Assembly: GCA_023247725.1 (NCBI GenBank)
Contig: JAHFFW010000016.1
Coordinates: 1 to 58,244, forward strand
Source of the DNA: Candidatus Omnitrophota bacterium
GTDB taxonomy: Bacteria > Omnitrophota > Gorgyraeia > Zapsychrales > JAHFFX01
DNA: 58,244 nt
Reading direction: 5' to 3'
Shown here piece after piece: positions 1,508 to 48,169 of the stretch. The notes under the pieces were generated by a model, which had not been told where the DNA came from, did not search any database, and saw only the letters and a list, made by a program, of their open reading frames with translations. The position numbers and the translations under genes were made by a program. Numbering within the stretch: position 1 is the first letter of the stretch; every line of letters starts with the position of its first letter.

Positions 1508-3271
1508 TCATTTTTTGTCATTTGGTTGGAAGCCAAGAATCAGATGGAGAGTCAGCCACAGTAAAAAAATACTTGAAGAATTGTTAATATCAGCGGAGGA
1601 CATTAAACCATGACATACCCGATTTCTTAAATTCGGGCCAGTTTTTTCAATCAGAAGAGATCTCATTTCCCAGAGTAAATCTTTGCCAAAAATTTTCTCT
1701 GCTTCAGGATCAGTTAAAAGCTGGTTCAAATCACGTTCCTGCTGCACTCCCTCGCGGACCGCGGTAATTTTTAATTTATTTGCGCCAAATATCAATCTTA
1801 CTGAATTTTCAATCTGTGGAACGATGAGGTGAGTGAACAGTAATAAATCACCTTCAAATCCGGCAATAATTGCCCGCTCATAAATATCTGCCCTATCCTT
1901 CGGCACGAATACGCTTGACGCTATAAATTCCTTTATACCATCTTTCCAAGAGTCGCTTGACTGGACAACTAAATCAATGCCCCGTTTTAGGGTAGTGCTT
2001 GCTGACAGACTTTGCCCCAGATTGTAACCCCGGACGGCGTGAGCTTTAATACTCTCTTCATAGTTATCTGTCATGCCCGGAATTGTGGCTGCCACATTGC
2101 CTTCTTCTGTAAATATTTGCGTGTTAAATAAACCCTGCAACGGGTGTTCCTTCAGCATTTTCTTTGCGGATTCTTCTTCATGCGCATACGAAAAGGGAGT
2201 AACCAAGATTGCAAATGCCTCAATCACCGCAATCCCCGTTTTGTTCCCGATTCCTTCATCTGCGATATTCAATAAAGGGGCAGCATCAATGAGCGGACTG
2301 GTAATCGCCTTCATTTGCCCAAGAGCCATTTTATTTGCTTCTTTTAATTCATGCACCAATTGTTCAGCCTTTGCACTATTCCCTGCCTCACGATAAGCAT
2401 AAATAGCTTTCTCAAGTCTGTGGGCTAAATTAAATCCATCACCGCCTCCAGGCGTCTTAAAAGACCTTGCTTCATCTTCCCAATGTTTGGCAAGAGCTAA
2501 TTTCGCCTGTTTTGCTTTTTCTGTTTGATTTGCTAGTTCATAACACTTTGCCGCTAATTTGTAATATTTTCGCGGAGCATCGCATCCAGGAGAAATTGGA
2601 AATCCCTTTGCAATAGCCACTGCTTTATCGCCCAAGTCATTCCAATCATCAGCAAGTTTATTTTCTATAATGAGTCCAAGTAATGTAGCCGGCCAATAAT
2701 CTTGCCTATCTGTGAAGCATTTTGTTCTTCCATCTTCAAAAAGCTGTAACAGTTTTTGTTTGATAATTTGCCGCTCTTGTGCTTTCTCTCCTAGCTCCAT
2801 TGCGATTTGGGTGCTTCTTTTGAGCCACTCACTTTTAGGCACCCATGTTTCATCATTATCCTCATCAACAGATTGCAAGTAAGCTTTTATTGTCCTTTGG
2901 GCATACAAAAAATTCTTTTTACGTATCCAGAGAACGTCACAGATTCTTGCGACAAAAGCGGGGTTATCTATTCCTTCAAGAGTTTCTTCTAATTGTGCTA
3001 ATTCCGCACTAGTTAAGTCTTCGGGTATAAGAGTTCTTCCTTGCGGTCCTGACATAAGTGGTCCAAAAGGTTGCCCTTTAGCAAACTGGAAATACATTGA
3101 GAAGACTCCCCATAATAGCCGCATGAATTTTTCTAATTCTTGATCTCCTGCCTTTTGGGCGGCGTCTTGTATTTGCCGGAATGCCGACAAGAAATCAGGC
3201 ATTTTCTGGTTTTTAACAGCCGATACAGCATCTTTGCAAGCTTCCAATAATCGTTTATCCATTGTAATCAT
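1508..3271 (-). CDS. Large helical protein with C-terminal DUF4209/HEPN-like region
   Basis: 587 aa ORF; C-terminus ...GPNLRNRVCHGLMSS contains an R-x4-H motif typical of HEPN-type domains. Confidence 0.6.
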   Translation of the reverse strand: MITMDKRLLEACKDAVSAVKNQKMPDFLSAFRQIQDAAQKAGDQELEKFMRLLWGVFSMYFQFAKGQPFGPLMSGPQGRTLIPEDLTSAELAQLEETLEGIDNPAFVARICDVLWIRKKNFLYAQRTIKAYLQSVDEDNDETWVPKSEWLKRSTQIAMELGEKAQERQIIKQKLLQLFEDGRTKCFTDRQDYWPATLLGLIIENKLADDWNDLGDKAVAIAKGFPISPGCDAPRKYYKLAAKCYELANQTEKAKQAKLALAKHWEDEARSFKTPGGGDGFNLAHRLEKAIYAYREAGNSAKAEQLVHELKEANKMALGQMKAITSPLIDAAPLLNIADEGIGNKTGIAVIEAFAILVTPFSYAHEEESAKKMLKEHPLQGLFNTQIFTEEGNVAATIPGMTDNYEESIKAHAVRGYNLGQSLSASTTLKRGIDLVVQSSDSWKDGIKEFIASSVFVPKDRADIYERAIIAGFEGDLLLFTHLIVPQIENSVRLIFGANKLKITAVREGVQQERDLNQLLTDPEAEKIFGKDLLWEMRSLLIEKTGPNLRNRVCHGLMSSADINNSSSIFLLWLTLHLILGFQPNDKK

Positions 3272-26586: not shown

Positions 26587-28494
26587 TCATCGGACTTGAA
26601 TAATCGGAACGGGCGTTTGGTTGATCGTCGCCTTGAAGGTCGCGGCATCGGAACTGCAATGGGTTTCCGAATTATCGTCGACGGTTAGCCGCACGTTATA
26701 GACGCCGCCTTTGGAATAAGTATGATTGGTGATGGCCTCACTGGACCCATCGCCATCGCCAAAATCCCAATGGTAGCTGAGATTGTCGCCATCGGGGTCG
26801 CTCGATTGCATACCATTAAAGACCGTGGATTCTCCCATACAGCAGGCGGTGTTTTCTCCGGCATTGGCCACGGGCGACGAGTTGACCTTGACCATCGTGC
26901 TCGCCGAAACACTCGAGCACTCGGCACCGCGTCCGTCGTCGGCAATGACGGTCACTTTATAATTTCCCCCCTTGGCAAATTTGTGGGAACCCTTGGGTCC
27001 GCCTTTATAAATGCTGCCATCGCCAAAACTCCAGAAATATTCCAGCTTATCACCATTGGGATCTTTGGCCGCGGCATCAAAGCTGATCTCCTCATCCACG
27101 CAGCCGGCATGAGAGGGTTTCAGTGAAATCACGGGAGCGGAATTAATTTCTACATTCACCATATCCGAGGAGGAAGGGCAATCTCGGCTATGGGCATTCT
27201 CGACGGTCAAGGTCGCCTGAAAACGTCCGGGCTTAGCGTAAATATGTTGAACCTTTAATCCTCGCTCGTACGCTCCGTCGCCAAAAGTCCATTTGGAAAA
27301 AAGCACTTCTTCTCCGTCCACCGATGAAGGCGTGCCGTTAAATTCTACCGGGTCCCCCACGCAGGCCAATTTGTCTTCTCCGGCCTTGGCGACCGGAGCC
27401 CGATTTAAATTGACGGTGAGAGTGTCCTCGCTCGCATTACAGGAAAGTCCGGAATCATCTTTGACCTTCAATTTCACTTCATAGCGGCCGCTTTTTCGAT
27501 ACAAATGCGAAATGGTTTTCCCGTCTCCAGTTTCTCCGTCGCCAAAATCCCAAACGTAAGACAATTTGTCTCCATTGATATCAGTGGTTCCGGAGGCGTC
27601 AAATACAACCGCTTGATTGGTGTCTTTATCGACGCAGGTGATGAGAATATCCTGACCCGCATTGGCGACGGGGGGCGCGTTGACCGTGATCTTTTTGGAA
27701 ACACGATCCGTGCTGCAACCGGTCTTCGCGTTGTCGTCAACCACTAAGACAATGTTGTAATCGCCGCCCGTTGTGTAAGTGTGGCTGACCGAGCGCCCCT
27801 GTTTTTGATTCCCGTCGCCAAATTCCCACCAAAACGTCACATCCTTCGGTTTATCGGATTGGCTTTCGTATCCCTGCAGATTGATTTCTTGATTGACGCA
27901 GACATGTTCCGGAGCATCAAACGAACCTTTGGGAGGAATATTGACATTGATGACTTGAGCACTGGCAGCGGTGCTGCAATTGCCTTGCGTATTGTCGGTG
28001 ATCAATAGTTTAACGGTGTATTTGCCGCTTTTCGCGTAAGTATGAGTGATGATGGGTTCCGTGCTCGTCGTGCTATCGCCCAAATCCCATTGATAGGAAA
28101 GGTTCTGATTGTCTGGGTCATACGACTTGGAGGCATCGAAGGTGAATTGATTGCACTGTGTGCCAGTGGTCGTGGTGACGTTAAGGGCCTCGGAGTTTTT
28201 CGCGGAAGACTCTTTGACATCGATATCCATCTGATCCTTGTTTGGTTTAGTTTCGTTGGGAGCCTCGTTTTGCGCGGACGGGGGTTGGGTGGATTCCTTC
28301 TTATTGTCCTCATGTTCTTTGGTTATGGTTTGTCCTTCCTCTGGGGTGCTTGTTTCTTCCGGGTTTGATTCCTCAAAGGGATCCTCGTTTTCTGAAGCAC
28401 GCAGGGCGAAAGCATTGGAGATATGGAAGGTGGAAATGGCGAGGGACAGCAAAGATAAACAAAGAAGCTGAGATAGAACTTGGTGCTTACACAT
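26587..28494 (-). CDS. Secreted protein with six tandem PKD domains
   Basis: Repeated W-x-FGDG/DLGD and H-x-Y/F motifs (WDLGDST, WWEFGDGNQ, WDFGDGETG, WTFGDGAYE, WSFGDGSIY, WDFGDGDGS). Confidence 0.88.
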   Translation of the reverse strand: MCKHQVLSQLLCLSLLSLAISTFHISNAFALRASENEDPFEESNPEETSTPEEGQTITKEHEDNKKESTQPPSAQNEAPNETKPNKDQMDIDVKESSAKNSEALNVTTTTGTQCNQFTFDASKSYDPDNQNLSYQWDLGDSTTSTEPIITHTYAKSGKYTVKLLITDNTQGNCSTAASAQVINVNIPPKGSFDAPEHVCVNQEINLQGYESQSDKPKDVTFWWEFGDGNQKQGRSVSHTYTTGGDYNIVLVVDDNAKTGCSTDRVSKKITVNAPPVANAGQDILITCVDKDTNQAVVFDASGTTDINGDKLSYVWDFGDGETGDGKTISHLYRKSGRYEVKLKVKDDSGLSCNASEDTLTVNLNRAPVAKAGEDKLACVGDPVEFNGTPSSVDGEEVLFSKWTFGDGAYERGLKVQHIYAKPGRFQATLTVENAHSRDCPSSSDMVNVEINSAPVISLKPSHAGCVDEEISFDAAAKDPNGDKLEYFWSFGDGSIYKGGPKGSHKFAKGGNYKVTVIADDGRGAECSSVSASTMVKVNSSPVANAGENTACCMGESTVFNGMQSSDPDGDNLSYHWDFGDGDGSSEAITNHTYSKGGVYNVRLTVDDNSETHCSSDAATFKATINQTPVPIIQVR

Positions 28495-28645
28495 GTTGGA
28501 CTCCTTGCCGAGAATTGAGTGAATTGATTAAATTTTTGTAAAAATAAGTATACCATCTTTACTTGCCTTTTGCCGAAATTCTTCTAGGGTTTTTTGCTTC
28601 TGGTAAGAAGAATATATTGAAGAAAGGGCCCAATGAATCAGCTCA

Positions 28646-28816
28646 TCAGCTTTGTTTTTTGCCGATGACGTAATAAAGAACCATGCCGATGAGCGGCATA
28701 AGGAGGATGACGATCACCCACACGAGCTTTTCGGTTGAATCTTTCTTGCTCTGTAAGACATCGGCCAATGCCATGATATCCAGAATAATAACAATGAGAC
28801 AGAGAATGAAATTCAT
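28646..28816 (-). CDS. PLDc_N-like small membrane protein (absent from the ORF track)
   Basis: Manual translation MNFILCLIVIILDIMALADVLQSKKDSTEKLVWVIVILLMPLIGMVLYYVIGKKQS*. Confidence 0.75.
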   Translation of the reverse strand: MNFILCLIVIILDIMALADVLQSKKDSTEKLVWVIVILLMPLIGMVLYYVIGKKQS

Positions 28817-28896
28817 AAAGCCTCCTCGGCGGTTTCTTAAATTTTTTTTGAAATCGGAGCCCGATGGATCATTCTTATTGAAGACGTCACGACTTA

Positions 28897-29469
28897 TTAT
28901 TCCTGAGCGTCCACCCGGGACAGAGAGGTTGAGCTCGGTTCAGTGAATGTGAAACTGCGGATTAACACCGCAAATAAATCTTTGTATTCCTCGAACCGGT
29001 TTCTGGTATTGACCGAAAAGCTGATCCGATAAAGCGCCTTATTTTTGATGACAAAATAATCCAAGATTTGCACATTGGGGTAGTGAATCGGATTGGCAAT
29101 GACGATTACCGCTTTTTGGCCGCCGACCCGCGATGGCCCAATTTTAAAATCCGGCTCATAATGGAAGTTGGCCTGCAAATTTTTGGGGCTAAGGTCTTCC
29201 CAAAGATATTGGCCTTGCGCGAACTTAGTGATCGTGACCGTCACAATATGACGTGGACGACCTTTGACCACCAACATCAGGCTTTCCGGCGAGATTTCCC
29301 TTTGCCAGTGAGGACTGCATTTGATCTGGAAGCCCAGATTTTTGTCAGTGCAGGTGGTCAAACGCGGTAAATGGGAAGCGGATGGCGCGGTGGATTCCTG
29401 GGCGGTCAAATTCTCTCCGGGACCCCAAAGCGTCGCGAGCAAAAATAAAAAAAAGAGGGTTCGTTTCAT
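28897..29469 (-). CDS. PsbP-like/hypothetical exported protein
   Basis: MKRTLFFLFLLATLWGPGENLTAQ signal peptide; start overlaps the upstream TIR gene stop by 4 bp (ATGA). Confidence 0.6.
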   Translation of the reverse strand: MKRTLFFLFLLATLWGPGENLTAQESTAPSASHLPRLTTCTDKNLGFQIKCSPHWQREISPESLMLVVKGRPRHIVTVTITKFAQGQYLWEDLSPKNLQANFHYEPDFKIGPSRVGGQKAVIVIANPIHYPNVQILDYFVIKNKALYRISFSVNTRNRFEEYKDLFAVLIRSFTFTEPSSTSLSRVDAQE

Positions 29470-30269
29470 TTGTCCAGGATCAGATAACCGTTTGCCTTTA
29501 AACGCTCGTGCAAATCCCTTTCCCAACGGCCGGATTCATCCATGGGCGTATAGACGGCGTCATAAAACTTCGTCGGCAGGTCAAAATTCGGTTTTTCTTG
29601 ATAAAGAATAAATACCTGATTTCGCTGTAGTTTTCCCATCACATATCCCATTTCAAAGACGACGTTCGCCGTAGCCTTGAGCCGGGCATCCTTAGGGATA
29701 CCGTCTTTTCGGAAAGCCAACTCATCGGCGGACAAGATGACCACAGCGAATTGGAATTCTCCGACCTCGGCCAGCTTCTGTGCCAAGGATTTACCCTCAT
29801 TGTATTGGTCGAAGGAAAGGGTGGGTTTAAGCGACCAGCCTTTCAATTTTTGTAAAACCTTGGCGCACATCAATTCATTACGACCATTAATGACAAAGAC
29901 CTTCTTTCGTTCAACTTGTCTTGGCTCCGCGGGTGGAGTTGATGCGCCTTCGGTGGGGGATTGGACTTGTGACTCTGGAATTGACGTAACGGTAGCCAGA
30001 GGCATGATCGCAGGTTCGCTCGGCGACGATGCTGGCAGCGCTTTAGTCGAAGTATTTTCAGAAGGCTTGACCTCTCCTACAGCTAAAGCCCCGGCTACGG
30101 GTGACGACGAGTCGCCGGGGCTTGGAATGATTGGCGAGACTTCGCTCAATTTTGTTTGTTCCGTTTCCGGACCTTTTTCGTTAGAGGGTTCATTCAAAGA
30201 CCTTGTCTTTTTGAGTCGATCGAGGCGCGAGCGAAAAAAAATTAGAACGTTAAACCAGTTTATTGGCAT
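29466..30269 (-). CDS. TIR-like domain protein (CAP12/Pycsar-type), copy B
   Basis: KKVFVINGRNELMCAKVLQKLKGWSLKPTLSFDQYNEGKSLAQKLAEVGEFQFAVVILSADE...ANVVFEMGYVMGKLQRNQVFILYQE; long low-complexity N-terminal region. Confidence 0.75.
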   Translation of the reverse strand: MPINWFNVLIFFRSRLDRLKKTRSLNEPSNEKGPETEQTKLSEVSPIIPSPGDSSSPVAGALAVGEVKPSENTSTKALPASSPSEPAIMPLATVTSIPESQVQSPTEGASTPPAEPRQVERKKVFVINGRNELMCAKVLQKLKGWSLKPTLSFDQYNEGKSLAQKLAEVGEFQFAVVILSADELAFRKDGIPKDARLKATANVVFEMGYVMGKLQRNQVFILYQEKPNFDLPTKFYDAVYTPMDESGRWERDLHERLKANGYLILDK

Positions 30270-31671
30270 CGATCGTAAATCCGCAATTTTTTAAGGTGCG
30301 CAGAAGATCAAACTGCCAGCGACCGTGTTTGTCGCAGGGGGTGTACAGCACATCAAAATAATTCGTTGGTATCTCAAAATTTTTTTCTTCGGGATAAAGC
30401 ACGAAGACGCGATCGCGTCCCAGTTTCCCGATCAGGAATCCTAATTGAAAGATGACATTTTGCCTGGCCCTTTGCCGGACGCTTTCCGGTGATTGATCCC
30501 GGTGACGTCCTAAATCATCGCTTGATAAAAGGACAGCGGCAAAGGACACATACGGGTAATCTCGGAATTTTTGGACGAGAGTTTTGCCCTGGTTGTGACC
30601 GATATCGGAGAGAATGGGTTCGAGACCAATTTTTTGTAAGGCAAAAACCACCTGATCGCGCATGAGTGTATCATAGCCGTGGACCACGAATACCTGTTGC
30701 CGGACGGTTAAGCGGAAATCTTCCGGGCGGCCGGCTGGAGGAATCGCAGCTGGAATTTCTTGGGCGAGGGAAGACTTTTCCGGTGGGGCTTGGAATTCCG
30801 GTAGCGGCCAAGACGATCCGGTATCCGATGGAGCGATCGGTGCCGTTTCCTTTTTTTCTTGATTTGATTCCTCGCTTTTGGATTGGGCGATTTCTCCACT
30901 TTTGTCCTTCTCACGCACATCCTTGTAACCCGGAAGTAACATATCCGCGATTTCATCGAATTCCTCATCGTCGATGTCGTTGTCGGCCGAAGGAAGCTCT
31001 GACGGCTTTTTTATTGGAATCTCCAGCGGGATTTCTTCAGCAGAAGACTCGGCCTTTGCGTGTTGTTGTGAATCGCCGGCAGATTCAGGCTCCTGCACCG
31101 GTTGGGTTTCTTCTTCTACTTTGGCTTGGGAGATAAAGGTTGTTTCTTCGTCTCTATTGAGCGGTTGAGGCGGGATTTCTATTTCATCTAAGAGTTCCAA
31201 TTCTTCAGGTGTCGGTTCGGGGGTGGTTTCCGCTAAAGATTCGTCCCGGTGAGCGGAACTTGTCAAAGGGGGTTCGGGTTCGGGGCGATCGAAGGTTTTG
31301 TCTTCTTTATCCGTTTGCGGTTGAGAAGCGAATGGAGACAAATCCAGGGCTTGGTCCATCTCTTCGCGCAAGGCCTCGGGAAGAGACCCTAGAAAAGGAT
31401 CTTGCAGAACTGCGTTCAAAAGTTTTTTGAGATTGAGAATCCCTTGCTGCCAGCTGGAGCGGTAATCCTCTTCCGTCGAATAAAAGGAACCCGGCGTAAA
31501 ACGGATCCGCTGCAATTCATGCCGGTAATCGGACGACTCGCCAAAGATATCGCGGATGGTTCGATCGGCTTCGTGGCGAAATTCGTCCAGCCGGATCTTA
31601 TTGCGATAAGGCAATAGATCGACTTTCTGCAAAAGCCCCCAGATCATTCCCTGTTTTTTGAATTCCGTCAT
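30250..31671 (-). CDS. TIR-like domain protein (CAP12/Pycsar-type), copy A, with acidic linker
   Basis: QQVFVVHGYDTLMRDQVVFALQKIGLEPILSDIGHNQGKTLVQKFRDYPYVSFAAVLLSSDD...RARQNVIFQLGFLIGKLGRDRVFVLY; likely start MTEFKKQGM (ORF extends to 31743). Confidence 0.8.
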   Translation of the reverse strand: MTEFKKQGMIWGLLQKVDLLPYRNKIRLDEFRHEADRTIRDIFGESSDYRHELQRIRFTPGSFYSTEEDYRSSWQQGILNLKKLLNAVLQDPFLGSLPEALREEMDQALDLSPFASQPQTDKEDKTFDRPEPEPPLTSSAHRDESLAETTPEPTPEELELLDEIEIPPQPLNRDEETTFISQAKVEEETQPVQEPESAGDSQQHAKAESSAEEIPLEIPIKKPSELPSADNDIDDEEFDEIADMLLPGYKDVREKDKSGEIAQSKSEESNQEKKETAPIAPSDTGSSWPLPEFQAPPEKSSLAQEIPAAIPPAGRPEDFRLTVRQQVFVVHGYDTLMRDQVVFALQKIGLEPILSDIGHNQGKTLVQKFRDYPYVSFAAVLLSSDDLGRHRDQSPESVRQRARQNVIFQLGFLIGKLGRDRVFVLYPEEKNFEIPTNYFDVLYTPCDKHGRWQFDLLRTLKNCGFTIDANKLV

Positions 31672-31711
31672 GGCCGTGCTACATCCCGGATCGAAAGGAT
31701 CGTTCCGCAAA

Positions 31712-33007
31712 TTATAATAATTCCCCGCGAACGGCTTGTCCATCCAACGTTGTTAACCGGACGAGCTTCAGTTGATTCTGCAGGTTGATCGAATCTCTGG
31801 TGCGGATTTTAACGCGGGCGTAATGATCGGTAAATCCAGCCCAATCACCCAATTTTTTTTCCTCAAAAAGAACGGATTGGGTCGTCCCCAAGAGATTGTG
31901 GAGAAACTGCTGGCGTTTGAGAACACTCAGATCTCTTAAAATTCGGCTGCGTCGCCGAATTTCACTTTCCGCCACCGGATCAGGAAGAAGTCTGCTTTGC
32001 GCATACCTTCGCTCAGAATAACTGAAGACATGCAGATAGGATAAAGGAAGTTCTTCCAGCCCTTGCACGGTTGCGGCAAAATCCTCGCTGGTCTCGCCGG
32101 GAAAACCCACAATGCAATCCGTCCCCAGGCAGATTTCGGGAACGACCTTCTTGACATTCCCAATAAAGTCCTGAAATTCCTGAATTGAATATTTTCGCTT
32201 CATCTTCTTTAAAATGACGTCACTGCCGCTTTGCAGAGGAACATGCAAATAACGGCAGAGCTTGCTGCCTTGCGCCATTCGTTGAAACAATTCCCTCGGG
32301 ATCGTTGTCGGTTCAATCGAAGAAATTCTGATCCTGCATAATCCGTCAATTCGTTCAAGCGCCTCGATGACATCCATAATTTTTTTGTGTTCGTGATCGT
32401 AGGTGCCCAGATTGATGCCGGTTAAAACCAATTCCTTGTGGCCGGCCGCGACGAGCGCCTGGGCCTCCCAGAGGATGTCCGCGAACTCGCGGCTGCGGGC
32501 GCGGCCGCGCGCGTAAGGGATTTCGCAGAATGAACAGAAGAAATCACAGCCGTCTTGGATCTTCAAATTGGCGCGCGTGTGAGCGCGATCGATTCCGGCC
32601 GTGGGAATTCTAAAGGCCTTTCTCGGGATAGGCGGAACAATCACCTGAGTTTGAACGGGATTGGGCTCTGCCTCCACGATGGTTGCCAGGTCAAGTTTTT
32701 GCGCGTTACCGACGACCCAGCGAACATTGGCCCAATGGGCCAGTTGCTCCTTTTGTATCTGCGCCTGACAACCCACCAGCGCAATCTTTGCGCCGGGATT
32801 GCGCATGTTGATGCGCTGGACCAATCGCCGTGCGTCGGCATCGCCATTTTCGGTTACGGTACAGGTATTGATGACCACCACATCGGCCGGTTGATCAACA
32901 TTCACCACGCGATACCCTTTGGATTCAAAGGAGCGTTGAAGGACAGCGGTTTCGGCTTGGTTCAAACGGCAACCGAATGTGTAAAAGGCTACGGATTCAG
33001 GATGCAT
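31712..33007 (-). CDS. mtaB: tRNA methylthiotransferase MtaB-type (radical SAM)
   Basis: FYTFGCRLNQAE and CDFFCSFCEIPYARGRARSR. Confidence 0.93.
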   Translation of the reverse strand: MHPESVAFYTFGCRLNQAETAVLQRSFESKGYRVVNVDQPADVVVINTCTVTENGDADARRLVQRINMRNPGAKIALVGCQAQIQKEQLAHWANVRWVVGNAQKLDLATIVEAEPNPVQTQVIVPPIPRKAFRIPTAGIDRAHTRANLKIQDGCDFFCSFCEIPYARGRARSREFADILWEAQALVAAGHKELVLTGINLGTYDHEHKKIMDVIEALERIDGLCRIRISSIEPTTIPRELFQRMAQGSKLCRYLHVPLQSGSDVILKKMKRKYSIQEFQDFIGNVKKVVPEICLGTDCIVGFPGETSEDFAATVQGLEELPLSYLHVFSYSERRYAQSRLLPDPVAESEIRRRSRILRDLSVLKRQQFLHNLLGTTQSVLFEEKKLGDWAGFTDHYARVKIRTRDSINLQNQLKLVRLTTLDGQAVRGELL

Positions 33008-33015
33008 GATTGAGG

Positions 33016-33759
33016 TTAAGGATTCGGCTCGTTACTTAAAAAATCGTCGAGGAAATTTCTTTTACTGTGGCGGAATAAGGATTGACCGGTCTCGGAACTG
33101 AAGTAATAGAGCATCCCCAGAAAAATAAAAGTGTGCAGCATTTCTAATTGGGTACTGAGATTCGGATGGTAACCATGCGAAACCTTAGCGGCCAGACCCA
33201 AGAGATCATTGATGTTTATTTGGCTTTGGGCGAGCAAGCCCTCCACTTTTTCACGATAAACGTAAACATAGGTTTGCCAGAAAAAGGAAATGCAGATGCT
33301 GAGATAAACAAACCATTTGACCCAGGGAAAAACAATCGTGAATCCGATTCCGGCCACAATAAGCCACATGCTTAAGATGAGATAAATATAAAGCCGCACC
33401 GGGTGGCTCATGAGAAAAAACACGGCTTCAAAATTTTTTAACCGTTCGATGGTCAAATAAATCTCATCTCGCCCCAGCTCAATATTTTCTTTGAGAATCT
33501 CATTTTGATTTAACCACTGGTCTTTGCTGATCCGGCCTTTGAAATAATCCTTGTCGAGTGTCCGACCAAGTCTTTGGGTGTTCACTTCGTATTCCAACAG
33601 CTTTCGGGAACGGAGTCCGTCCCAATCCGTGGGGCCGACGGAATTGACCACATCATTGAGATAAGTGATCCCGCTGATGAGAAGAATAATGCCGATGATG
33701 ATGGTTCCAATCGTCCCTTTTTGGATACTGCGGTTTAGCTTTAGATGGAGTGTTGCCAT
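33016..33759 (-). CDS. Hypothetical membrane protein
   Basis: 247 aa, multiple TM segments. Confidence 0.6.
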   Translation of the reverse strand: MATLHLKLNRSIQKGTIGTIIIGIILLISGITYLNDVVNSVGPTDWDGLRSRKLLEYEVNTQRLGRTLDKDYFKGRISKDQWLNQNEILKENIELGRDEIYLTIERLKNFEAVFFLMSHPVRLYIYLILSMWLIVAGIGFTIVFPWVKWFVYLSICISFFWQTYVYVYREKVEGLLAQSQININDLLGLAAKVSHGYHPNLSTQLEMLHTFIFLGMLYYFSSETGQSLFRHSKRNFLDDFLSNEPNP

Positions 33760-34115
33760 AAGATTTTAAAGAACGTCAGCCACGCTAAGAGAAAGCAAAT
33801 CCCCCCGAAGGGAGTGATGGCGCCCAGCCATTTTTGGCCGGTCACAGCTAGCAAGTAAAGACTGCCGCAGAAAAGCGTAATGCCCAAAATCAGCAGAACT
33901 CCGACCCATTCGGTTTTGGGATTGTTGGAGATGGAGCTAAACCAGGCTAGGATCAAAAGTCCCTGGGCGTGTACCACGTGATAAAGCACGGCCGTTTTGT
34001 AAATATCCATGGAATATTCAGAGATCTTTCCTCTTAATGCATGCGAACCAAAAGCCCCCAGCCCCACGGCCAGGAACATGGCGAGCGTCCCCCATCTGGC
34101 CCAAACGATTCCCAT
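33741..34115 (-). CDS. DUF423 family membrane protein
   Basis: LGAFGSHALRGKISEYSMDIYKTAVLYHVVHAQGLL...CGSLYLLAVTG. Confidence 0.9.
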   Translation of the reverse strand: MGIVWARWGTLAMFLAVGLGAFGSHALRGKISEYSMDIYKTAVLYHVVHAQGLLILAWFSSISNNPKTEWVGVLLILGITLFCGSLYLLAVTGQKWLGAITPFGGICFLLAWLTFFKILWQHSI

Positions 34116-34123
34116 CGGTTTCC

Positions 34124-35404
34124 TTAACTGTTCGCGATATTTTTATTAAGCCATTCCAAGGCTTGATCAATACCGAGGAGAGTGGCTTTGATTCTCAGAT
34201 CAAAATGCCGGTTGTGGGTTCTTCCCTTGTGTGCATGTACTTTGATGAGTCGAACATTTTCTTCCAGATCCGGATACGAGAGTTTTTCTTCGACGTGAAT
34301 ATCGTGGCCTAAAAGAGCTTGAGGATCAAATTCAAATTCATGACGACGATAAGTCCCATCTTGGCAACGGGCCGAGCACATGATTTTGACCGGTCGAAGT
34401 AAAGGAAACGCGAGCGACCCCTCGAGCCCATTACGAATGACCACTGCCCCGGGGAATCCGGCGCGCTCCGCAATCGTGATCATTTTTTCAGTAAAAGGCG
34501 GATGAAATGCCGAGGTGAATAAAATTCGCGCACCCGCCGGATTCAAAAATCGTTCCAACGTGGCCAGAAAGGGCCGCTTAATGATTTGTCGCCGGAGGTT
34601 GACCCAATGGTCTAAAGGGCGAGACAAAAATGCCTGATGCAGAAAATATCCGAACGCGGGTTGAGTGTCCGTGATTTCCGTATTATTCAAGGGAAAATGA
34701 CCCTTGAGGGCCGAAGATAAATCCAAAAGATTGTATCCGGATTTGGGTCCGCTGTTTCGGCCCACGAGACTGATCACCCGGTATCGGTGTGCGATCAGAT
34801 GCTGGGCCATAAGCGGAGTCAACAAATACGATTGATCAACACCATCGAAGGGTTCTGCCAGTTGAATGATGGGAAATCCCGGCGGGGTTGGAATCCGAAA
34901 CCCCCTCTCGATGGTTTCTTGGATGCTCAGGCGCAGGCCCTCATATTCTTCGGAGGTTTCATACCGCACCCGCAAGGCCGTGGCCACCAAACCCCGTGCG
35001 CCATCGCCGGGAAGATCGGAAAATAAAAAGCGCCCCAGTTCCAAAGCCTTTGAGAGAGGAAGTTCTTTGCCATCAAGGAGCTCCTGGCAGATCATTTGAA
35101 TGGATTCTGGCACATCATGGGCGAGGAATTGGGCAAGATTTCGGGCACTCTGAAGAGTGCCGGCCGGCAGGGCCGATTCTAAAATTTTTTCTGGTGGTGT
35201 AATTCCTTTCAAAAATAACCCGGCGAAAAAAGCCCCTTTCTCAACTGGCAAAATTTTTTCCGTCTGTAAATCCGAAAGGATTGCCTGAGCAAGTTCTGGG
35301 CTTAAGGCTTTGCTCCCTCTTTTTCCCACACCGACGGTTTTGATTCCAAGCCGGATGGGCGTATCCTGCAAGGCGGTTGGAGCTAACTCTGAAATAGGGT
35401 TCAT
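34124..35404 (-). CDS. Anthranilate phosphoribosyltransferase-like (glycosyl transferase family 3) protein
   Basis: VGVGKRGSKALSPELAQAIL...FHPPFTEKMITIAERAGFPGAVVIRNGLEGSLAFPL. Confidence 0.6.
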   Translation of the reverse strand: MNPISELAPTALQDTPIRLGIKTVGVGKRGSKALSPELAQAILSDLQTEKILPVEKGAFFAGLFLKGITPPEKILESALPAGTLQSARNLAQFLAHDVPESIQMICQELLDGKELPLSKALELGRFLFSDLPGDGARGLVATALRVRYETSEEYEGLRLSIQETIERGFRIPTPPGFPIIQLAEPFDGVDQSYLLTPLMAQHLIAHRYRVISLVGRNSGPKSGYNLLDLSSALKGHFPLNNTEITDTQPAFGYFLHQAFLSRPLDHWVNLRRQIIKRPFLATLERFLNPAGARILFTSAFHPPFTEKMITIAERAGFPGAVVIRNGLEGSLAFPLLRPVKIMCSARCQDGTYRRHEFEFDPQALLGHDIHVEEKLSYPDLEENVRLIKVHAHKGRTHNRHFDLRIKATLLGIDQALEWLNKNIANS

Positions 35405-35617
35405 GCATTTACCCAAAATGAGGATTCCATAAAAATCCTTTGTTATCAATGCCATTAGTATAACTTTCTAGGATTAAAAATCAACCCTTTCGACGCATGT
35501 TCCAATGCCAGGGCTTAGCATCCTTAGCAAATTCTTGCTTAACACCGGGTTTACGTTATAATTGAAACGAATTTTCTCATATGCGGATCAATTTGTTTCA
35601 ACCGAGCAAATAAACTC

Positions 35618-45706: not shown

Positions 45707-47068
45707 CTAGGACGATGGACGAGAAGCCTTCGCGTCCCTCGTCCCACATCCCTCATCCTTCGAATGAGGGATTTCCCTAATTGTCTTGTACGGGTAAATC
45801 CCCGACGTATGGCCATCATTCCAGTTGATCCCGATCGCATAATTGCCTAAAGGGAAAATCTCTTTTGGTTTAATATCGGCCTGGACATGTTCCGGTAAAA
45901 GTTTTTGATTTCCGGTTAGTTCATCCACACATAACGCGCAGCGGCAACTTAAACGCAAATCTCGGTTCGAAACTTTAAGTTCTTCCCCATTCGACCATTT
46001 GAGATAAGTAAACCGATCATCAAAGCGGATCTGGGGAATTTCTTTCCGGCTGATCCTGGTCTTTCCATGAGCCCGCACCACCTGATCCACGGCTTCTTGA
46101 ATCAAAGGGTTTTCAATCTGTGCGTCGAGAGACGTGGTCAGTTCCTTGAGAAGTGGAATCTGGGCTAGCGTCGGCAGACCAAATCGCTCTTCCAGCGTGG
46201 TTGACTGACTTCCCCCAAAAATGTAATGCCTTTTTTGGCATTGATCGCAGATAAAGTAAGACATATTCTCGATGATTCCAAGAATGGGGATATCCACCTT
46301 CTCGAACATGAGGATCCCGCGGGATACATCCACTAAGGATAACGTTTGCCGGGTGGTGACAATGACCGCCCCGCTTATGCGCACGGCCTGCGTGATGGTC
46401 AATTGGATGTCTCCCGTTCCCGGCGGCATGTCAAGGAAAAGATAATCGAGCTCTCCCCAGGCGGTATTGTGCAGCAATTGCTGAATGTAACGCGACACAA
46501 TAGGCCCGCGCAAAACCGCCGGCGCATCGCCTAAAAGAAAACCAAAAGACATCACCTTCAGGGAATGGTGTTGGAGCGGAATAAATTGATTTTTATCATT
46601 GACGTAAATGGTCACATGACGCAAGTTGAATAAGGAAGGAATCGACGGCCCATAAATGTCCGTATCCAATAAGCCAACCCGGAATCCTCGTTTGGCTAAG
46701 GCGAGCGCCAAACATCCACTAACGGTGGACTTGCCCACTCCGCCTTTCGCCGAAGAAACCGCAATGATCGATTGGACGCTGGTCAAACCGCTCTGTTGAA
46801 TGTCCGTCGCTGAACCTTGCGACCGAGGGGTCGCAGTCATATGGACCTTGACTGTGCGCACTCCGGGAAGCTGACGCACGGCCTCTTGTGCTTGAGTTTG
46901 GAATTCGGTTTTGACCGGGCAGGCGGGGGTTGTCAGGTCAATATCAAAAGCGACGTTGCCGTCATTGATGGATAAATTTTTAATGAATCCCAGGGACACG
47001 ATGTCCTTTTGAAAGTCCGGATCAATGATGTTTTTTAAGGCGCCGAGAATTTCTTGTTCGGTGGGCAT
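45707..47068 (-). CDS. Mrp/NBP35-type P-loop ATPase with DUF59 and C-terminal DUF971
   Basis: AVSSAKGGVGKSTVSGCLALAL; N-terminal DUF59-like; C-terminal LRLSCRCALCVDELTG...YAIGINWNDGHTSGIYPY. Confidence 0.92.
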   Translation of the reverse strand: MPTEQEILGALKNIIDPDFQKDIVSLGFIKNLSINDGNVAFDIDLTTPACPVKTEFQTQAQEAVRQLPGVRTVKVHMTATPRSQGSATDIQQSGLTSVQSIIAVSSAKGGVGKSTVSGCLALALAKRGFRVGLLDTDIYGPSIPSLFNLRHVTIYVNDKNQFIPLQHHSLKVMSFGFLLGDAPAVLRGPIVSRYIQQLLHNTAWGELDYLFLDMPPGTGDIQLTITQAVRISGAVIVTTRQTLSLVDVSRGILMFEKVDIPILGIIENMSYFICDQCQKRHYIFGGSQSTTLEERFGLPTLAQIPLLKELTTSLDAQIENPLIQEAVDQVVRAHGKTRISRKEIPQIRFDDRFTYLKWSNGEELKVSNRDLRLSCRCALCVDELTGNQKLLPEHVQADIKPKEIFPLGNYAIGINWNDGHTSGIYPYKTIREIPHSKDEGCGTRDAKASRPSS

Positions 47069-47149: not shown

Positions 47150-48169
47150 TCAGACCTTCATCCGTTCAATTTCTTCGTCAGAAAGTTTCTTCGCCCGCAC
47201 TTTACGGATATTCGTACGATCCTTCACCAGCCAGTATTCGACCTCGATTTCTGGTGAATCCTTAAAGCTCGAGAATCGCTGCACTAGTCCCGCAGCGATG
47301 GTCAGGACTTCGGGGCCAGGATCATAGCCTTTAAGAACCAACGTGGGCCCCTTCTTATTTTCAACTTCAAAAATCAAATCATCAGAATGAGCAAAGGAGC
47401 GTAATGACTCATTTTCCGGTTCATCGCGGCCGAGAACCAGTTTGAAATCTTTGGAGTAACGAAAATGCCGGCCCCACTTGAGGCTGATCGTTTCACGGAA
47501 CGTGCGATAACCATGGTCGAGGGTGTCCTTCATCCGCCGGGCAAAATTTTTATCGGTCAATAAACATCCGCCGGCGGGCGGCAAAAAATCCTTGATTTGA
47601 TAACGCCGGGCCAATTCCAATTGAGGTTTACGAGTCCTTCCGGAAATATTGAGCAGTCTTTGGCGGTCGATGAGGCCTTCTTGTTCGGGAATCGTTGGTT
47701 CCAGTAACTGAGCGCATAGGGGTCTTAGTAAACAGCCCTCCAATTGGCTTTCCCTTTCAATCATCCGGAGGCTATGGCGCATCTGAGACATCGGCCGTTG
47801 CCCAAGGATTTCTCCGGTAAAGACAAAATCCGCCCCAATCGAGCGCATATATTGACCGGCGCGGGCAAACATGTGGATTCGGCAATCGACGCAGGGGTTA
47901 AGCGCCGAGCCATAACCGTGTTTGGGTTTCTTCACGATCTCGAGGTAACGTTCATCCAACTGCAAGACGATGCAATCGATGCCCAATTGGGCGCTAGCCT
48001 GCAAAGCCTTGGTCTTGTCGCAGCATCCCCAGGGCATGGCAAAATACACCCCTTGCACCTTAACGCCAAGCTCCTGAACAATCTTGGCAGCCAAAATACT
48101 ATCGAGACCTCCGGAGATGAGGCCCACGGCCTTGACGGTTTTGGGTTGGGCATTCGATTGCTGAATCAT
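47150..48169 (-). CDS. PP-loop ATPase, MnmA/ThiI-like tRNA thiolation family
   Basis: AVGLISGGLDSILAAKIVQELG; NPCVDCRIHM. Confidence 0.75.
   Translation of the reverse strand: MIQQSNAQPKTVKAVGLISGGLDSILAAKIVQELGVKVQGVYFAMPWGCCDKTKALQASAQLGIDCIVLQLDERYLEIVKKPKHGYGSALNPCVDCRIHMFARAGQYMRSIGADFVFTGEILGQRPMSQMRHSLRMIERESQLEGCLLRPLCAQLLEPTIPEQEGLIDRQRLLNISGRTRKPQLELARRYQIKDFLPPAGGCLLTDKNFARRMKDTLDHGYRTFRETISLKWGRHFRYSKDFKLVLGRDEPENESLRSFAHSDDLIFEVENKKGPTLVLKGYDPGPEVLTIAAGLVQRFSSFKDSPEIEVEYWLVKDRTNIRKVRAKKLSDEEIERMKV

Follow-up and report, generated by a model that had tools for sequence, protein, structure and literature searches.

A CAP12-type TIR gene pair beside mtaB in a Candidatus Omnitrophota bacterium: a candidate for domestication of a PDC-S35-like protein

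Introduction

Bacterial TIR domains are usually viewed as defence effectors that consume nicotinamide adenine dinucleotide (NAD). Here we analysed two adjoining TIR genes, A and B, on a contig of 58,244 nucleotides from an uncultured Candidatus Omnitrophota bacterium (GenBank assembly GCA_023247725.1, contig JAHFFW010000016.1, positions 1 to 58,244 of the forward strand). This whole stretch is called the window below, and the genome it belongs to is 2.19 Mb in size and 91% complete. The two genes follow the tRNA methylthiotransferase gene mtaB, and we lean towards an account in which they represent a PDC-S35-like protein that was domesticated at the mtaB locus, with the TIR as an assembly scaffold and most likely without NADase activity.

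Among described systems, the closest is PDC-S35 of PADLOC, a candidate single-gene family of phage defence for which we know of no published assay. It resembles the window proteins in the TIR domain and, in the case of A, also in the N-terminal domain, both of which match. The window proteins differ from it by an acidic linker of about 200 amino acids and by degenerate catalytic residues, and the locus differs in being fixed at mtaB and in holding a second copy without the N-terminal domain. The CAP12/TIR-STING effectors of the cyclic oligonucleotide-based antiphage signalling system (CBASS) carry a TIR of the same subclass and provide the best solved structures (9lmq and 7un8). In their representative SfSTING the active site is formed by R78, N80 and the catalytic E84 together with D110 contributed by the dimer mate, and the D110A mutation abolished NADase activity (PMC9402430). 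In contrast, A and B have no STING domain, their TIR is C-terminal, and E84 and/or D110 are replaced; the genome gave no match to a SMODS-type CD-NTase (cGAS/DncV-like nucleotidyltransferase) at E up to 1, other CD-NTase models not having been searched. CBASS was rejected as an assignment, since the genome has neither SMODS nor prok_STING matches, and no Pfam domain of a STING or SAVED sensor was found in A or B. PycTIR, the effector of the pyrimidine cyclase system for antiphage resistance (Pycsar), matched in its TIR only weakly (30 and 36 bits). The window proteins differ from it in lacking a cyclic-nucleotide-binding domain, and no pyrimidine cyclase was present among the Pfam-scanned neighbours at 26587-35455 (the whole genome was not searched for one). 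The initial annotation, which saw no cyclase or STING partner nearby and no obvious CBASS or Pycsar locus, was right on both points. Outside bacteria, Dictyostelium TirB, TirC and TirD are domesticated CAP12/Pycsar TIRs (preprint PMC13142454). They offer an earlier example of this TIR subclass being domesticated for a role other than phage defence, but they are eukaryotic, were acquired horizontally and conserve the catalytic Glu.

Linkage to mtaB

The genes form a run on the minus strand in which mtaB (31712-33007, with Pfam domains UPF0004 and Radical_SAM) is followed by A (30250-31671) as the second gene, then by B (29466-30269) and a gene for a PsbP-like protein. Relatives of A were found in 33 of 92 related genomes, and wherever mtaB was found among these genomes the DNA 3' of it was read for genes. 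The gene immediately 3' of mtaB was a related TIR gene in at least 28 genomes belonging to the families f1, f4, f5 and f7, and it usually touched or overlapped mtaB. In genomes G039 and G077 the TIR gene adjoined dus, and no mtaB was found on the stretch read. In the mtaB search the closest named records belonged to Candidatus Omnitrophota, and in the top four the TIR gene adjoins mtaB.

The identity of mtaB across the order is 47-66%, and the divergence of the TIR followed that of mtaB (Mantel r = 0.82, a value reached in 0 of 5000 permutations). When mapped on a tree of 58 mtaB proteins, the presence of the TIR gene takes about 11 changes, far below the number for shuffled labels. No TIR gene was seen at 31 of these 58 loci, some of which are at contig ends. 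A relaxed profile search of the apparently TIR-less loci found no degenerate TIR, so the absences look clean. Synteny and trees indicate that the ancestor of A and B was inherited mostly vertically, with losses and one local duplication; the TIR locus has largely passed down with mtaB and is no defence island.

Among 384 genomes drawn from the whole phylum, PF10137, the Pfam family of these TIR domains, turned up outside the window's order in four, and in the three of the same class no mtaB neighbour of the PF10137 gene was present in the stretch read. Canonical PF10137 copies in Omnitrophota sit at other places, two of the three examined being near integrase-like genes. Plasmids often carry canonical relatives (1132 records). 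Phage records with a relative of A numbered only four, all of which match just its C-terminal part including the TIR domain. This plasmid distribution, together with PADLOC PDC-S35 scores of 176 bits for A and 105 bits as the other score of the pair, could speak for an anti-phage defence module of PDC-S35 or Thoeris-like type. We consider such a module quite improbable in view of the fixed chromosomal site with mtaB instead of a defence island, the co-divergence with mtaB, the loss of catalytic residues described below and the absence of any partner among those looked for.

Active-site residues and selection

The active-site positions were mapped by a phmmer alignment to 7un8 and by MAFFT, with the numbering of the 7un8 chain taken to be offset by 8. 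All four residues, R78, N80, E84 and D110, were present in 13 of 13 canonical PF10137 rows, a sample chosen by similarity to A or profile score, with two identical rows, rather than a census; they were complete in none of the 34 members of the mtaB-type clade. Within the clade E was kept in 8 members, R in 5, D in 3 and N in 2, and the catalytic Glu position is variously occupied by E, H, Q, L, D, A, K or G. The structural residues G87, P111 and W128 were kept in 34 of 34. Neither window protein has the four residues. The tetrad of A reads R-N-Q-N, with Q in place of the catalytic Glu (NVIFQLGF) and N in place of D110 (PTN), and that of B reads T-N-E-K, with the Glu retained (NVVFEMGY), R78 replaced by T and D110 by K. 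As read from the residues, this pattern argues against cleavage of NAD+ by A, and weakly so for B. Since the NAD-binding and catalytic residues are relaxed in this branch, a protein of the A/B type is most likely not an NADase.

In the TIR tree the canonical PF10137 sequences (from plasmids, one phage and the canonical Omnitrophota copies) were split from all others with support of 99/92, and the clade beside them contained the mtaB-linked TIR group with support of 89/42. The same clade also holds two further TIR proteins, which form a pair of their own on long branches and lack the active-site residues (G054:C136, on L151, and G068:C151, on L152); their genes have no mtaB neighbour on the stretch read.

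In two genera of family f5, His replaces the catalytic Glu in every TIR copy. The ratio of nonsynonymous to synonymous substitution rates (dN/dS) of these His-type genes was about 0.04-0.12 for pairs with finite dS, many pairs being saturated. It was lower than the dN/dS of mtaB in every pair with both measurable, and the His-type TIR protein was more conserved than mtaB in all pairs compared. The low dN/dS and the protein conservation indicate that a Glu-less TIR member behaves as a functional gene in these genera. They also count, together with the intact reading frames, against a decaying and functionless remnant of a mobile defence gene; the frequent loss at mtaB loci would fit such a remnant, which we regard as very improbable.

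An acidic residue, Asp or Glu, stands three positions past D110 in 27 of the 34 clade members, where the canonical rows have Gly in 13 of 13. The protein could accordingly be a neofunctionalised enzyme with a migrated active site (a clade-specific Asp at the canonical Gly116 position and, in two genera, His for Glu), which would act on another nucleotide or on an RNA cap. The active region of the His type is highly conserved, and the literature describes both pseudoenzymes in which residues have migrated and the decapping of NAD-RNA by TIRs (PMC10211241 and PMC10937652). Such an enzyme seems distinctly unlikely to us, as members of the clade differ freely in the residue at the Glu position, a variation that scaffolding fits better than any single new chemistry.

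Architecture of A and B

The coordinates of both genes, which are on the minus strand, agree with those given initially, as does their overlap of 20 bp. Gene A encodes 473 amino acids, arranged as an N-terminal helical domain (about residues 1-115; 31327-31671), an acidic, disordered, Pro/Glu/Ser-rich linker (208 amino acids, isoelectric point (pI) 4.1; 30703-31326) and a C-terminal CAP12-type TIR domain (30253-30700). A longer frame, from an ATG upstream at 31743, is open as well and would overlap mtaB by 32 bp; the start was taken as 31671 because the sister-genus homologue aligns with that start. The product of B has 267 amino acids, with a short cationic amphipathic N-terminus, an acidic P/E/S-rich linker (98 amino acids, pI 4.4) and a CAP12-type TIR (29469-29906). 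The TIR assignment at the end of each protein was borne out by PF10137 scores of 79.7 bits for A and 64 bits for B, well above the cut-off of 24.7, and these are the only two PF10137 domains in the whole genome. The composition of the linkers and their proposed disorder were likewise confirmed, the latter by the AlphaFold model of A, in which the predicted local distance difference test (pLDDT) score was mostly below 50 in the linker, except for a helical stretch at residues 234-257. The N-terminal domain of the model was of low confidence, and the TIR, with a mean pLDDT of about 65-91 per ten residues, was modelled with good confidence for most of its length. In Foldseek, the top PDB matches of the model were the TIR-STING/Cap12 structures 9lmq and 7un8.

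The match of A to PDC-S35 falls in two stretches. The N-terminal domain had a sole match, to the PDC-S35 profile PDLC05005 (positions 24-94, E 1.1e-5), which is independent of the TIR, and 7 of 11 aligned A-type N-terminal domains, that of A among them, matched the same profile. Since both its N-terminal domain and its TIR match, A has the complete architecture of PDC-S35, its two domains being set apart by a long linker; B matches with the TIR part only. A profile of the N-terminal domain built from the window's order found only A-like proteins of that order, and the domain had no Pfam match. Sequence matches to it in the PDB were at chance level and were rejected, and a plasmid tblastn search with it gave nothing convincing. 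At the N-terminus of B the cationic amphipathic stretch NWFNVLIFFRSRLDRLKK was found (p 0.003 against shuffles, uncorrected for the number of proteins scanned), and comparable stretches are present in A of the sister-genus genome G002 and in G017 and G034.

A tandem pair of TIR genes was seen in the window and G002 only, the locus elsewhere having a single copy. As a general description, the proposed two-TIR, hetero-oligomeric module is weak, all other relatives having a single copy at this locus; the second copy, whose absence from relatives had been named as a test of the pair, is mostly absent outside the family and present in the sister genus. The two TIR genes of G002 are separated by a gene for a YcxB-like protein (L059, 9670-10197). 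The TIR of A is nearest to that of the G002 B protein, trees favouring cross-pairing with no alternative tree rejected, and the N-terminus of B has a weak resemblance to the central part of G002 A. Cross-pairing or exchange between the window and G002 copies is possible, and the pairing of A and B may matter inside the window's family.

The pair could also be regulatory, with B, which has the Glu, as an NADase or maker of an NAD-derived signal, and A, with Gln, as its inactive partner, licensing or restraining B by TIR-TIR contact. The adjacency and overlap of the genes and the persistence of two copies in the sister genus suit this arrangement, as do the E and N retained by B and the R and N retained by A. 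However, both proteins lack the equivalent of D110, which in SfSTING is supplied in trans to complete the active site. The catalytic Glu is retained in both G002 copies, so that a split into active and inactive members is not conserved, and the single copy found in most relatives usually lacks the Glu. A regulatory pair is therefore unlikely in our estimation.

Downstream genes and other features of the window

The gene following B (28897-29469, minus strand) encodes a PsbP-like secreted protein, named by resemblance only and without Pfam match; its likely ATG at 29469 gives a 4-bp overlap with the stop of B. A homologue comes after the TIR gene in G002, G029 and G010. Genes for a PsbP-like protein, DUF1223, a glutaredoxin-like protein, a pseudopilin and a PKD protein recur further downstream across the order in varying combinations. 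The PKD protein of the window (26587-28494, minus strand) has six PKD domains; throughout much of the order it is a conserved gene on the downstream side of mtaB or of the TIR gene.

Elsewhere in the window, three other genes on the minus strand were noted: one at 1508-3271 for a 587-amino-acid protein that matches the PADLOC candidate PDC-S39 over nearly its whole length (372 bits), one at 47153-48169 with a ThiI-like PP-loop domain fused to an NFACT-R_2 RNA-binding domain, and one at 45710-47068 for an Mrp/NUBPL-type ATPase with an N-terminal FeS-assembly domain and a C-terminal GBBH-like_N domain.

Proposed function

In the domestication that we favour, a PDC-S35-type ancestor, with the N-terminal domain and a CAP12-class TIR, would have settled directly 3' of mtaB in an ancestor of the order and would since have descended mostly vertically; it would have been lost cleanly many times and duplicated locally once, in the window's family. 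The TIR fold would have been retained as a protein-protein assembly module, mediating self-association, or association of A with B, through TIR-TIR contacts at the ends of long acidic flexible tethers. To this assembly A would supply the N-terminal domain and B the cationic amphipathic N-terminal helix, possibly for docking at the inner membrane. The downstream envelope genes (pseudopilin, PKD protein, DUF1223) point to an envelope- or pilus-related process as the likeliest place of action. A more specific version is that an immune TIR became a vertically inherited, mtaB-linked, non-enzymatic scaffold and was doubled, in the window's family, into a tethered two-component envelope TIR assembly, adaptor-like as are MyD88/MAL-type TIRs in animals; this we put forward tentatively and with some doubt.

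Several points weigh against a domesticated scaffold. The scaffold role and the TIR-TIR contacts are what we infer. B, judged by its retained catalytic Glu, may be active, and the acidic residue past D110 could stand in for D110; the Glu of B and this frequent acidic residue of the clade are the main grounds for doubt. The dN/dS was measurable in the His-type genera only and not for the window's A/B pair, and several relatives are without the amphipathic helix seen in B. Occasional transfer into the same site may also have occurred, given the weak deep support of the mtaB tree and the number of changes in TIR presence on it.

Significance

Beyond the initial annotation, mtaB just upstream, the extra N-terminal domain of A and the degenerate active sites were recognized. 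The first interpretation, as a two-TIR defence module, was partly supported, its defence framing being weakened by the vertical synteny with mtaB and the lost NADase residues. With its catalytic residues lost and its inheritance beside a tRNA-modification gene, the former phage-defence candidate now seems to be an ordinary cellular gene. Matches to PF10137 or PDC-S35 should accordingly be checked for residues and context before they are counted as defence systems. If our account is true, bacteria domesticate immune TIRs for other work, the fold being kept and the active site lost in an mtaB-linked gene under strong purifying selection.
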